Part shown: positions 3,429 to 47,583 of the stretch, in pieces
Layout of the letters: each line of letters opens with the position of its first letter
Numbering within the stretch: position 1 is the stretch's first letter
The notes under the pieces: model-generated
Databases searched by the model: none
What the model saw: only the letters and a program-made list of their open reading frames with translations
What the model was told of the DNA's origin: nothing
Assembly (NCBI RefSeq): GCF_026625745.1
Contig: NZ_CP113061.1
Location: 1,079,501-1,143,500 of the forward strand
Source: Asticcacaulis sp. SL142
GTDB taxonomy: Bacteria; Pseudomonadota; Alphaproteobacteria; Caulobacterales; Caulobacteraceae
Direction: 5' to 3'
DNA: 64,000 bases
Program-made: the position numbers and the translations under genes

Positions 3429-3570
3429 TACCCCTCCGTCATTTTCGCTGCGCTCAATGCCACCTCCCCACGCAAGCGTAGGGAGGAGAAGTACCGCATC
3501 CTCCCCTCCTCCCTATCGAGTTAAAGCGAAGATGGGGAGGTGGCGCGGCGAAGTCCGCGACGGAGGGGTA
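3429..3570. repeat. REP-like inverted repeat pair (CCCCTCCGTC family, copy 2)
   Basis: Begins TACCCCTCCGTC at 3429 and ends GACGGAGGGGTA at 3570. The two internal units each contain CCACCTCCCC or its complement and GGGAGGAG or its complement. Same architecture as the copies at 1-122 and 7545-7679. Confidence 0.85.
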
Positions 3571-7012: not shown

Positions 7013-7023
7013 ATCTCCCATCA

Positions 7024-7109
7024 CCCCGTCCCGCCCCATCATCACCGGATGGACACGGATACCGACATCACCGACGCAAAGGCACTAAAACTGCGCCGGT
7101 TACGGTTGC
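7024..7109 (+). pseudogene. Truncated duplicate of the start of the gene at 7724
   Basis: These 86 bases align without gaps to 7699-7784, the leader and first 20 codons of the downstream gene, matching at about 75 of 86 positions. The copy keeps the leader CCCCATCATCACCGG and the ATG (7049), and would encode MDTDTDITDAKALKLRR. It then runs straight into a C-rich junction and a repeat (7126). The remainder of the gene is absent. Confidence 0.75.
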
Positions 7110-7120
7110 TGCCCCCCCGC

Positions 7121-7510
7121 CTATGCCCCCTCCGTCATTTCGCTGACGCTCAATGCCACGGCACGGGCCCGCATCAGTACGCCCAAAGCGGCTTCATCAG
7201 CATCCCGCATAATATCAGCCGCATTGATCCGCATCACCTCAAGGCCCTGCGCACCCAGCCATGCCAGCCGCCCCTCATCGCGTTCAGCCACATCGCTGAG
7301 GTTATGCACCTGCCCGTCCACCTCAACAACCAACCTTGCCGCCGCACAGTAAAAGTCGGCAATATAAGGCCCGATAGGGTGCTGTTTGCGAAAGTGAATA
7401 CCGTCCGGTTTGCCTTTGATCCTTGCCCATAGCCGAACCTCCGGCGGGGTCAGGTCTTTGCGGAACTGACGCGCCAATTCGTATTTCAGACGGGGTTTGG
7501 GTGGGTTCAT
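7121..7510 (-). CDS. DUF559 endonuclease-domain protein (Vsr-like fold)
   Basis: 129 residues. DUF559 proteins are small single-domain proteins related to Vsr/PD-(D/E)XK nucleases. Visible features are LTPPEVRLWARIK near the N-terminus, then HFRKQHPIGPYIADFYC and VVEVDGQVH, which carry the expected acidic and basic active-site residues, and the EVMRINAADI strand. The ATG is at 7510. The last dozen codons and the stop lie inside a CCCCTCCGTC repeat (7126-7159), so the repeat supplies the C-terminus. Another inverted pair of the same repeat lies 35 bases upstream of the start, and the whole unit sits between two copies of another gene's 5' end. Biological role unknown; DNA repair or repeat mobility are possibilities. 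Confidence 0.85.
   Translation of the reverse strand: MNPPKPRLKYELARQFRKDLTPPEVRLWARIKGKPDGIHFRKQHPIGPYIADFYCAAARLVVEVDGQVHNLSDVAERDEGRLAWLGAQGLEVMRINAADIMRDADEAALGVLMRARAVALSVSEMTEGA
7126..7159. repeat. REP-like half unit inside the 3' end of the DUF559 gene (copy 3)
   Basis: CCCCCTCCGTCATTTCGCTG at 7126, then ACGCTCAATGCCAC: the first half of the family consensus. It matches the unit at 47524 closely. Read on the minus strand it encodes the C-terminus of the DUF559 protein. Confidence 0.8.
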
Positions 7511-7544
7511 TCTGAAATATTACCGAAGATTGAAAGTTTGGAAA

Positions 7545-7679
7545 TACCCCTCCGTCGGCTACGCCGCCACCTCCCCATGGAATGGGGAGGAGAATTACGC
7601 GCATTCCCTCCGCCCCATGCAATGGGGAGCGGGGCGGCCCGTGCCGTGGCTGTGAGCATAGCGAACAGACGGAGGGGTA
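7545..7679. repeat. REP-like inverted repeat pair (CCCCTCCGTC family, copy 4)
   Basis: Starts TACCCCTCCGTC at 7545 and ends GACGGAGGGGTA at 7679. It contains CCACCTCCCC and two CCCCAT...ATGGGG palindromes. It lies directly upstream of the DUF559 start and upstream of the intact gene at 7724. Confidence 0.85.
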
Positions 7680-7723
7680 CACGCGACTATCCCCCCAACC
7701 CCGTCCAGCCCCATCATCACCGG

Positions 7724-8353
7724 ATGGACTCTGATCACGACATCACCGACGCCGAGGCGCTAAAAATGCGCCGGATGCGGTTGCGCGTCTATGCCGACCG
7801 GCTGCTGGAGGCGGTCGAGATGATCCCCATGCCCGACAGCTTCCTTGAGGCCGAGCGCGCCCATAAGGCGGTTAAGGCCTGCGACGCCATGCTGGTTCAG
7901 CTTTACGGTGAGGCGGCGGAAAAGCTTGCGCCCGCCCCGCGCCCAACTGCCGCGCGCCGCACTTCACGCGATGATGCCGATGACGACGATCTGTCCGGCC
8001 TGAGCGAGGCTGAGCGCATCGACCACGAAGCGCAGGCCTTTCTCGAAATGGCTGAGATCATCGGCACGCGCCTTGATCGCATCCATAAGGCCCAGGCCGA
8101 AGCTCACGGGTTCTGGCCCGACGGCACGGTATATGACTCCGCCGATCCCAACTATGGCCTGCATCACTTCCACGATCCGCAGATCAATGCCAACAGCGGT
8201 ATGGACGACCACTGTCCCGGCTGCTGGCCCAACGGTATCCAGTGGGCCCTCGGTCGCGCCCCGCGAAACTTAGCTGAAAAACTGGCCGAAAAAACCGCCA
8301 GCAAGAACCACCGCTCCGGCCCCAACTCCGGCACCTACTCGGCTCCGCCCTGA
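7724..8353 (+). CDS. Unknown acidic protein with conserved HxxHDP / CPGC C-terminal motif
   Basis: 209 residues from ATG 7724. Frames open further upstream, but only through repeat DNA. The first about 60 residues form an acidic then basic helix-rich region (DITDAEALKMRRMRLRVYAD). A linker of P, A and a D-rich run follows, then a second helix, and a C-terminal segment with GLHHFHDPQINANSGMDDHC and CPGCWPNGIQWA, whose His and Cys residues could bind metal. No family recognised. The first 20 codons and leader are duplicated at 7024-7109, so the gene was involved in a local rearrangement. Confidence 0.7.
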   Translation: MDSDHDITDAEALKMRRMRLRVYADRLLEAVEMIPMPDSFLEAERAHKAVKACDAMLVQLYGEAAEKLAPAPRPTAARRTSRDDADDDDLSGLSEAERIDHEAQAFLEMAEIIGTRLDRIHKAQAEAHGFWPDGTVYDSADPNYGLHHFHDPQINANSGMDDHCPGCWPNGIQWALGRAPRNLAEKLAEKTASKNHRSGPNSGTYSAPP

Positions 8354-9647: not shown

Positions 9648-10523
9648 CTATGCCTGAACGCGTTCGCGCTCATCCTCATCCATAGTACCCGCAATTTGGG
9701 CACCCTGTTCGAGATTAAGCTCAATCATCACGCTGCGCAATTCCTGACGCGCGGCAACGTGCGCCAGAGACACCGCCACCGGTCGGACATCGCTGCTTAA
9801 GTCCGCCACCGTCAGGCCAAACGGGAACAGCTCACGATAGATGACCCGGTCGCGTAAACCGGCCGAAACGCGAAACCCCACCCGCTTGGACAGGGCGGCA
9901 ACCCGCTCATCGACCCGCTTACGGTTGCGGGCTTCGGTCGTGGCCAGACGGTTGCGCAGGACCACCCAGTCGATGCTCTGGCCATTTTCAATGGCGCGGT
10001 GCTTACGGGCATTCCACACGGTTTCGGAATAGATGGACGGCCGCTTGAGGTCGAGCGTGACCGGATCAACCTGCCCCAGCAGGTCAAAGTCGATAAAGCT
10101 GTCGTTCATCGGCGTCAGGATCAGGTCGGCGCACATATGGGCGCGGCGCGACATGGCCGAGTCCCCGCCCGGTGTGTCGATCACCACCATGTTGCAGGTC
10201 GCCAGCGCCTCCCCCAGCGCGCGGTCAAAGGCCTCAACCGCTACGTCTTCGGGGGCATCGACCAGTTTGGCGGGCGTGTCATGCAGGAACGGCTCAAACG
10301 CCTGCGGCAGATCCTTGCCATTGGCAGCGGCCCACACCTGACGGTTCGAGAAAAAACGCGCCAGTGAGCGTTGACGCAGATCAAGGTCGATAAAGGCCAC
10401 CGACTTTCCCTGATGCAGCAGGGCCACGGCGATGTGCATGGCGACCGTCGATTTGCCCGCCCCGCCTTTTTCGTTGCCGAACACCAAAATGCGTGCTGGC
10501 CCAGATGCCTGTTTAAACGCCAA
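9648..10523 (-). CDS. mipZ: Division-plane positioning ATPase MipZ
   Basis: ParA-family ATPase that forms a bipolar gradient through ParB and blocks FtsZ ring assembly near the poles in Caulobacter. 291 residues. The deviant Walker A is FGNEKGGAGKSTVAMH, with DTPGGD as the Walker B/switch region and the MipZ-specific C-terminal block GLRDRVIYRELFPFGLTVADL. I place the start at TTG 10523: AGGAG at 10532-10536 lies 8 bases upstream, and the frame beyond that is repeat DNA. A non-ATG start may keep expression low. It heads a tight operon with the J-domain protein and the astacin protease. Confidence 0.93.
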   Translation of the reverse strand: MAFKQASGPARILVFGNEKGGAGKSTVAMHIAVALLHQGKSVAFIDLDLRQRSLARFFSNRQVWAAANGKDLPQAFEPFLHDTPAKLVDAPEDVAVEAFDRALGEALATCNMVVIDTPGGDSAMSRRAHMCADLILTPMNDSFIDFDLLGQVDPVTLDLKRPSIYSETVWNARKHRAIENGQSIDWVVLRNRLATTEARNRKRVDERVAALSKRVGFRVSAGLRDRVIYRELFPFGLTVADLSSDVRPVAVSLAHVAARQELRSVMIELNLEQGAQIAGTMDEDERERVQA

Positions 10524-10544
10524 ACCAATTACTCCTGATAATTT

Positions 10545-10683
10545 TCTCCTCCCTATCGAGCCATCGTGGCGAAGATGGGGAGGTGGCTGTGAGCGTAGCG
10601 AACAGACGGAGGGGTACTTCATACGAAAGATACCCCTCCGCCTCGTGAACTCGGCACCTCCCCACGCAAGCGTAGGGAGGAGG
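10545..10683. repeat. Two REP-like units upstream of mipZ (CCCCTCCGTC family, copies 5 and 6)
   Basis: Unit one is 10545-10616 (TCTCCTCCC ... GACGGAGGGGTA). Unit two is 10631-10683 (TACCCCTCCG ... GGGAGGAGG). They are arranged tail to head-out, the opposite order to the pairs at 1 and 3429. The first unit begins only 9 bases from the ribosome site of mipZ, so its hairpin would be in the mipZ leader. Confidence 0.85.
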
Positions 10684-40497: not shown

Positions 40498-40566
40498 TAC
40501 CCCTCCGTCATTTAGCTATCGCTAAATGCCACCTCCCCATCTTCGCCAAAGCTCGATAGGGAGGAG
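40498..40566. repeat. REP-like unit (CCCCTCCGTC family, copy 7)
   Basis: TTACCCCTCCGTCATTTAGC, then CCACCTCCCCATCTTCGCC and GATAGGGAGGAG. A single unit, not paired, 45 bases upstream of the rarA start and about 100 bases from the efflux-pump stop. Confidence 0.8.
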
Positions 40567-47428: not shown

Positions 47429-47470
47429 CCCTCTCCCCGCTTGCGGGGAGAGGGTTGGGGTGAGGGGCTA
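47429..47470. repeat. GC-rich hairpin upstream of the RamB/ScfR-type gene
   Basis: CCCTCTCCCCGC-TT-GCGGGGAGAGGG, 12 perfect pairs (47429-47454), with a G-rich tail GTTGGGGTGAGGGG. It lies 11 bases upstream of the regulator's start codon and would be in its leader RNA. Confidence 0.65.
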
Positions 47471-47523: not shown

Positions 47524-47583
47524 GCCCCCTCCGTCATTTCGCTACGCTCAATGCCACCTCCCCATCTTTCGATAGGGAGGAGA
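47524..47583. repeat. REP-like unit (CCCCTCCGTC family, copy 8)
   Basis: GCCCCCTCCGTCATTTCGCT, then CTCAATGCCACCTCCCCATC and TTTCGATAGGGAGGAGA. Single unit in the divergent promoter region of the regulator and the glyoxylate genes. Confidence 0.8.

Follow-up and report, generated by a model that had tools for sequence, protein, structure and literature searches.

A DUF559 nuclease gene bracketed by inverted triplex-type repeats as a candidate mobile unit

Why should a small nuclease gene lie between inverted copies of a dispersed repeat? The question is raised by a stretch of 64,000 nucleotides from Asticcacaulis sp. SL142 (contig NZ_CP113061.1, positions 1,079,501 to 1,143,500; this whole stretch is the window below), part of a 3.7 Mb genome in a single contig. 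It carries a gene of the DUF559 family of Vsr-like or PD-(D/E)XK endonucleases (7121 to 7510, minus strand, 129 amino acids) that is set within such repeats. The anatomy recalls REP-RAYT systems (REPtrons, built from repetitive extragenic palindromic sequences and REP-associated tyrosine transposases), in which a single gene is bracketed by inverted dispersed hairpin repeats and many gene-less repeats and repeat pairs occur elsewhere. We consider it probable, from sequence comparison, that the DUF559 gene makes up, together with the repeats on either side of it, a REP-nuclease mobile unit in which a PD-(D/E)XK enzyme takes the place of the RAYT. What carries this reading was observed directly: bracketing of the gene, a mirror rule in the repeats, repeats that vary together with the protein, similar copies at scattered places, unoccupied alleles (some of them with one palindrome), and gene-less versions at the same sites. 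An earlier note on this DNA had proposed a REP-RAYT-like unit with a different enzyme; its anatomy, distribution and dispersal are well supported by the data below and Y1_Tnp has no match in the genome, while nuclease-driven movement is the part that we infer.

A nuclease gene between inverted repeats

The window protein matches PF04480 with an E value of 2.6e-24 in a Pfam scan and carries the family-conserved residues E24, D52, E63, D65, H69 and D78. On the 5' side of the gene stands an inverted repeat pair (7547+ / 7677-), which begins 36 bases from the start codon, a distance that had been given as 35. Its full triplex-type unit (7547 to 7590, minus strand) faces the gene start and consists of a hairpin CCTCCCC/GGGGAGG, a variable hairpin and a third strand GGAGGGG; the outer arm of the inverted partner unit (7636 to 7677) pairs with 7127-7169. 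On the 3' side the gene ends inside a repeat, as had been claimed, with CCCCTCCGTC at 7127-7136 lying within the 3' end of the open reading frame (ORF). Because the segments 7127-7144 and 7148-7169 of this partial unit (7127 to 7169) are inverted copies of 7660-7677 and 7636-7657 (89% and 91% complementary), the last residues of the protein are repeat-encoded. The gene-proximal unit of the 3' side is missing and the gene instead enters the far arm of opposite orientation, so the window copy is a rearranged member of the class of DUF559 units described below.

The unit had also been described as bounded by duplicated starts of another gene. The duplication itself is real, an 87-nt direct repeat (7023-7109 versus 7698-7784, both plus strand) with 87% identity, of which the right copy belongs to the intact next gene (ORF to 8353) and forms its start, and the left is an extra, truncated copy whose homology, read by eye, extends past a short insert as far as the repeat edge at about 7126. 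The unit is not bounded by it: four relatives (G149, G068, G060 and G075; G and L numbers are our labels for genomes and loci) have the next gene in single copy at this locus without the unit, and the left copy agrees better with the gene of G060 (87/97) than with the right copy in the window itself (84/97), which rules out a fresh target duplication. Such duplications were considered at this locus, with no systematic look at others. Since the left flank of the site matches its own genome only, the site is not a clean empty-site test.

Within the window, CCCCTCCGTC has 10 exact and three one-mismatch matches against 5.6 expected, and 13 matches were reached in none of 100 shuffles. The genome contains 49 copies of the longer form CCCCTCCGTC-N6-30-CACCTCCCCA, against none of the reversed control; a single DUF559 gene is of that repeat type. 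The genome holds four DUF559 matches, all between inverted repeats (scores 29, 76, 49 and 47), with three repeat types when read by eye: CCCCTCCGTC...CACCTCCCC at the window gene, GCCCCCCTCCGGCGC...CACCTCCCCC at L002 and CTCCCCCTGTTGCAGGGGGAG...GAGGGGGTAA at both L003 and L004. The L004 gene is internally shortened with its repeats kept, and a longer gene occupies the same site in G060, G068 and G075.

To score such bracketing, we took the best local match between the 350-400 nt upstream of a gene and the reverse complement of the same length downstream. The thresholds of 20 and 25 were chosen after the first score sets had been seen, and as each unit contains a palindrome direct copies can also produce a low score, N. 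gonorrhoeae being an example. Of the 33 DUF559 loci in five close genomes, 27 score at least 20, compared with none of 132 shifted control windows (25 of 28 in a first round that left out six of 34 loci with mis-set windows at contig ends). Among 72 loci with a GTDB name that could be scored (80 drawn, eight with too little flank left out), 56 reach 20 and 46 reach 25, against 6/427 and 0/427 shifted windows; those reaching 20 come from Alpha-, Beta- and Gammaproteobacteria, Geobacteraceae, Nitrospirae, Chloroflexi, Planctomycetales, Binatia and FCPU426. A phylum-wide draw of the one best gene from each of 40 genomes gave 24 bracketed loci, versus 0/45 other window genes, these loci being related by descent in part. 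The linkage of DUF559 genes to repeats that had been supposed from one locus is thus borne out as a very strong excess of flanking inverted repeats, and about 60-80% of the sampled DUF559 genes are bracketed, the remainder being unbracketed. Several units per genome are common, with up to 13 DUF559 matches. Nor is the repeat-encoded C-terminus a peculiarity of the window. Of 87 DUF559 loci scoring at least 25, 40 have their stop codon within the aligned 3' arm; in 34 the gene stops short of the arm and in 13 it continues past it, the arm edges being soft.

Bracketed genes also occur on other replicons. Forty DUF559 loci were found on viral contigs, and 13 of the 33 that were scored reach 20. 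Four of eight plasmid-collection records do so (S. meliloti 106, Sinorhizobium sp. K101 59, Sphingomonas parapaucimobilis 40, N. gonorrhoeae 20) and four do not. In the N. gonorrhoeae record (L415) similar triplex-type motifs stand on both sides of the gene in direct orientation. The Sinorhizobium loci L414 and L417 have the gene between two inverted pairs of the triplex motif (TM), the composite layout also present at L002 of the source genome.

Repeat, enzyme and agent of spread

The association of repeat and gene extends beyond the units themselves. Among 219 Pseudomonadota genomes, 54 have a strong DUF559 match (E below 1e-10, our own cut-off; the search tool's own tally is 75) and 46 the TM pattern, with 38 having both, eight TM only and 16 DUF559 only. 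DUF559 is therefore present in 38/46 genomes with TM versus 16/173 without (odds ratio 46.6, genomes not being independent by descent). When at least five TM copies are required the figures are 26/33 versus 28/186, so the gene's own ends do not make the link. A hand count by taxonomic family, the only correction for descent in these association tests, gave 17 families with both, three with TM only, four with DUF559 only and 36 with neither (p 1.3e-8). Protein similarity and repeat similarity are likewise correlated over 72 of 143 loci (r 0.50, permutation p 2e-4; 24 orthologues or duplicates, all loci scoring below 25 and short reading frames having been dropped), which are not independent by descent, and among paralogues within the five close genomes, where the host is constant (106 pairs, r 0.40, p 5e-4).

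The count of one repeat family proved no simple predictor of DUF559 number within the genus. G014 and G114 have four DUF559 matches each and one or no window-type repeats, G080 and G104 have 14 and nine such repeats and no DUF559, and genomes can hold several repeat types, as the source genome does. A further observation concerns G288 (87% complete), which has 127 TM copies and no strong DUF559 match; G346 and G198 are similar with 29 and 14. A lost gene, an assembly gap or another agent are possible readings of these TM-rich genomes.

The most serious competing explanation, which we nevertheless judge unlikely, is that a RAYT or some other transposase spreads the repeats and that DUF559 is cargo caught between two of them. 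It would fit the excess of gene-less units over gene-bearing ones (49 window-type copies and one DUF559 gene of that type) and the presence of Y1_Tnp, the RAYT family, in 4/25 genomes of the window's genus. However, a profile search for Y1_Tnp (PF01797) found no match in the source genome, and over the 219 genomes Y1_Tnp shows no link to TM (25/46 versus 103/173, odds ratio 0.81); together with its rarity in the genus, this rules out a RAYT as the mover. A cargo role also does not explain why one gene family recurs between repeats across phyla, nor why protein and repeat types co-vary within genomes. A transposase of an unknown kind may still play this part.

In its most usual form the repeat reads CCCTCTCCC-loop-GGGAGAGGG-loop-GGGTGAGGG, its final block toward the gene, that is, a purine/pyrimidine hairpin and a mirror-image third strand. 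Holder et al. (2015; PMC4666352), in the sections of their paper on the motif, describe it as an intrastrand triplex in which the purine arm of the hairpin pairs again with a third strand, and cite Hoyne et al. for potential intrastrand triplex (PIT) elements as intrastrand triplex motifs. If this idea is right, the third strand should mirror the purine arm. For 146 asymmetric arms at DUF559 loci, related by descent in part, the mirror fits better in 99, a direct copy in three, and 44 are ties; perfect mirrors number 117/146 and perfect direct copies 25/146, with A and T counted as equal. Arms as diverse as GGGAGAAGG, GGGGGAAGG, GAGAGAGGG, AGGGGGAG and GGGGAGG each have their own mirror, and the window unit, GGGGAGG with GGAGGGG, follows the rule with a small hairpin as its second loop. 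The exact TM_ECO consensus with a 3-nt second loop is not what the main window repeat shows, its second loop being that hairpin. The ends of DUF559 units are thus predicted to be able to fold as an intrastrand triplex, and the mirror rule is comparative evidence for selection on the three-stranded fold itself.

Could the repeats simply insulate transcription, as bidirectional terminators or processing signals that by chance flank a small foreign gene? Their hairpins do sit at gene ends and one unoccupied site resembles a terminator palindrome, but inverted repeats of this kind are rare or absent at controls (6/427; 0/45), a terminator needs no mirror third strand, similar units are dispersed as wholes, and the Discussion of PMC4666352 reports PIT motifs to be without promoter or terminator activity. 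We regard this explanation as improbable.

A second explanation, which we hold to be just as improbable, takes the enzyme as its starting point: DUF559 would repair mismatches or DNA structures in the manner of Vsr and be retained next to fragile repeats in order to keep them tidy. That the protein has the Vsr/PD-(D/E)XK nuclease-like fold, as had been suggested for it, is supported by a profile match over the cut-off, by a structural model and by conserved acidic and histidine residues (16 invariant positions in 24 DUF559 sequences, including the six named above). The AlphaFold2 model (predicted local distance difference test, 87.9) has as its nearest solved fold 3hrl, itself a DUF559 protein, and as its second 3r3p, the catalytic domain of the homing endonuclease I-Bth0305I (E 4e-5), whereas E. 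coli Vsr is a weak match at rank 12. The model and the conserved order E, D, H, D suggest a likeness to I-Bth0305I, whose type carries an EDxHD motif that we take these residues to match. The DUF559 gene differs in that it brings palindromic ends of its own; the DUF559 loci read showed no intron or intein, no search having been aimed at either. VsrA (Caulobacter), YcjD (E. coli) and NGO0050 (3hrl) belong to the same family as the window protein. In favor of repair, besides the weak fold match, VsrA of Caulobacter crescentus has a DUF559 domain and is proposed in passages of PMC12907096 to be a Vsr-like enzyme. Those passages describe it as Vsr-like repair and give no link to repeats. Against it, the Pfam scan found no methyltransferase among the four neighbours of the window gene, where a Vsr would be expected to have a linked cytosine methyltransferase, and the gene lies inside a repeat pair with up to 13 matches per genome and similar dispersed copies.

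Dispersed copies and unoccupied sites

In G146 three units are 92-93% identical to L312 over 533-535 bp and lie in unrelated places, and in G116 two units are 97.3% identical over 517 bp with unrelated flanks, a third being 92%. Identity between dispersed units ends at the outer edge of the outer hairpin. That the units are old, vertically kept and immobile, and that genomes differ only by loss through recombination between repeats, is the least likely of the explanations: it would account for sites common to three or four of the five close genomes and for one-palindrome or one-pair alleles as expected leftovers, but units of 92-93% identity and one 97.3% pair (with an ambiguous base in each copy) at unrelated places in one genome need copying.

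The occupancy of sites in relatives, a comparison that had been suggested, gave a mixed answer: some alleles have exactly one terminal palindrome, and others, including those at the window locus, do not. At two sites in genus g22 the occupied alleles of G146 and G142 (and of G369 at the first) consist of a unit between two palindromes; in G086 the same flanks enclose exactly one palindrome of 21 bp. At a third one-palindrome site, in the window's genus, G060 has a unit between two hairpins; in G000 one hairpin follows the same left flank and is itself followed by the first bases of the right flank found in G060. A single palindrome may be the scar of unit loss, and at site 1 loss is the simpler reading because several other genomes are occupied.

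Gene-less alleles are found at the same sites as gene-bearing ones. The L002 site reads repeat pair, gene, repeat pair in G000, G149 and G075, has half of the left pair in G068, and in G060 holds one gene-less pair. At the L121 site G060 has the gene, and G000 and G075 have gene-less units with an inner sequence that by eye resembles the gene's 5' leader. Gene-less pairs look like internally deleted copies of units. A DUF559 unit occupies the same site in two genomes (L310 and L321) but points in opposite directions relative to the flanks.

E. coli ycjD was considered as a strain-level empty-site test. Its locus (L180, MG1655 1349000-1355000) is polymorphic: of 5375 E. coli genomes with a match, 3330 cover at least 80% of it, and in three other E. 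coli genomes (L261-L263) efflux genes stand next to sapF or fabI. Such replacement, instead of a clean empty site, rules the locus out for this purpose.

Several observations weigh against a mobile unit. In the phylum-wide draw no clear inverted repeat was seen at 16 of the 40 loci, the TM units of E. coli ycjD are confined to the 3' side of the gene, and 8/46 TM genomes, one of them with 127 copies, have no clear DUF559 gene. The 97.3% pair of G116 has an unresolved base at the same position in both copies, and its assembly is therefore uncertain. A transposon would be expected to have a target-site duplication outside its inverted ends, yet at the 13 units with edges read no abutting direct repeat longer than two bases was found (0 or 2 bases), and a plain target duplication is therefore absent. 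At the two g22 one-palindrome sites the palindromes on the left and right are reverse complements of each other and are thus inverted ends of the unit. At the third site G075 also has the palindrome, followed by other sequence. A single palindrome was not seen at site 2 in G056 and G368 (gene-less TM pair) and G369, at site 3 in G056, G142 and G369, at site 4 in G391, G370, G381 and G390, or at the window locus in its four relatives. Finally, units might be lost simply because host enzymes delete the DNA between repeats.

A proposed mechanism and its meaning

Weighing these points, we retain the REP-nuclease mobile unit as the probable reading and propose the following model. The unit would be a selfish element of about 0.5 kb, ordered as palindrome, third-strand segment, nuclease gene, third-strand segment, palindrome. 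Its nuclease would be the mover, recognising and cutting either the end of its own unit or a terminal palindrome that stands alone, after which repair of the cut DNA would copy the unit into the new place. As to the order of gain and loss, we suggest that loss between the two terminal palindromes would leave a single palindrome, and that internal deletion would yield gene-less inverted pairs, possibly still moved in trans. The dispersed REP, TM and PIT repeats would then be leftovers of units. A wider version is held only tentatively, as a possibility to be taken seriously and not as our expectation: DUF559 units might constitute a phylum-spanning mobile class, whose single, homing-like PD-(D/E)XK nuclease would recognise an intrastrand triplex or its palindromic stem, home into lone palindromes, and have seeded most TM and PIT and many REP-like repeats in bacteria, including those of E. 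coli.

The unit is placed in no known family, because the REP-RAYT enzyme is absent and the triplex motif, described as a bare repeat, here forms the end of a unit that carries a gene. Like a RAYT, the DUF559 gene is bracketed by inverted REP-like hairpins with dispersed copies. Unlike one, it encodes a PF04480 protein and not an HUH/Y1 tyrosine transposase, and its ends carry a mirror third strand. The motif is the same as TM_ECO/PIT, a hairpin CCCTCNCCC/GGGNGAGGG followed by GGGNGAGGG. The portions of PMC4666352 that describe it list 23 copies in E. coli MG1655, place the motif in more than 260 genomes, report inverted motif pairs, and state that remnants of transposases or integrases were never found near it. 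Copy 9 in that list (1,351,204-1,351,239) lies between ycjD and fabI, and ycjD is a DUF559 gene; a text search of the main text found no mention of ycjD or of an endonuclease. In contrast to that account, in which no mobility gene was found, our data place the motif at the end of a nuclease unit, with more sequence types and often a hairpin as the second loop. Of 14 papers in the open PMC literature that name DUF559 (subscription papers and preprints lie outside this scope), none couples it to "transposable" or to miniature inverted-repeat transposable elements (MITE); DUF559 together with "repeat" and "palindromic" does occur there in two papers, at the level of listings.

Other repeats of the window and its genome complete the picture. 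Some window-type repeats form gene-less head-to-head or tail-to-tail pairs elsewhere in the genome, and the window itself has gene-less inverted pairs at 1 to 121 and 3431 to 3568, single units at 40500 to 40564 (minus strand) and, beside its one TM-like motif, the classical CCCTCTCCC..GGGAGAGGG..GGGTGAGGG at 47429 to 47466 (plus strand), at 47526 to 47580 (minus strand). Another unit (10548 to 10614, plus strand) lies at the upstream end of the mipZ ORF; the longest such frame (9648-10622) extends into it, and an automatic start call could therefore add repeat-encoded residues. In the source genome the head-to-head pairs L006, L010 and L030 have 80-85 nt of inner sequence unlike the DUF559 leader, alike in L006 and L010, which is possibly a second kind of inner segment.

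Triplex and PIT repeats are on record from hundreds of genomes, and in E. coli they have been associated with instability; the account in PMC4666352 leaves them without an identified agent of spread. A nuclease gene lying between such repeats in many phyla is a testable agent for that spread. If the model is correct, these units would be mobile elements without a transposase of a known class, and a role would be found for the DUF559 family, whose profile PF04480 is still labelled as of unknown function in Pfam. DUF559 units might also bear on the damage to Caulobacter DNA that the passages of PMC12907096 ascribe to VsrA.
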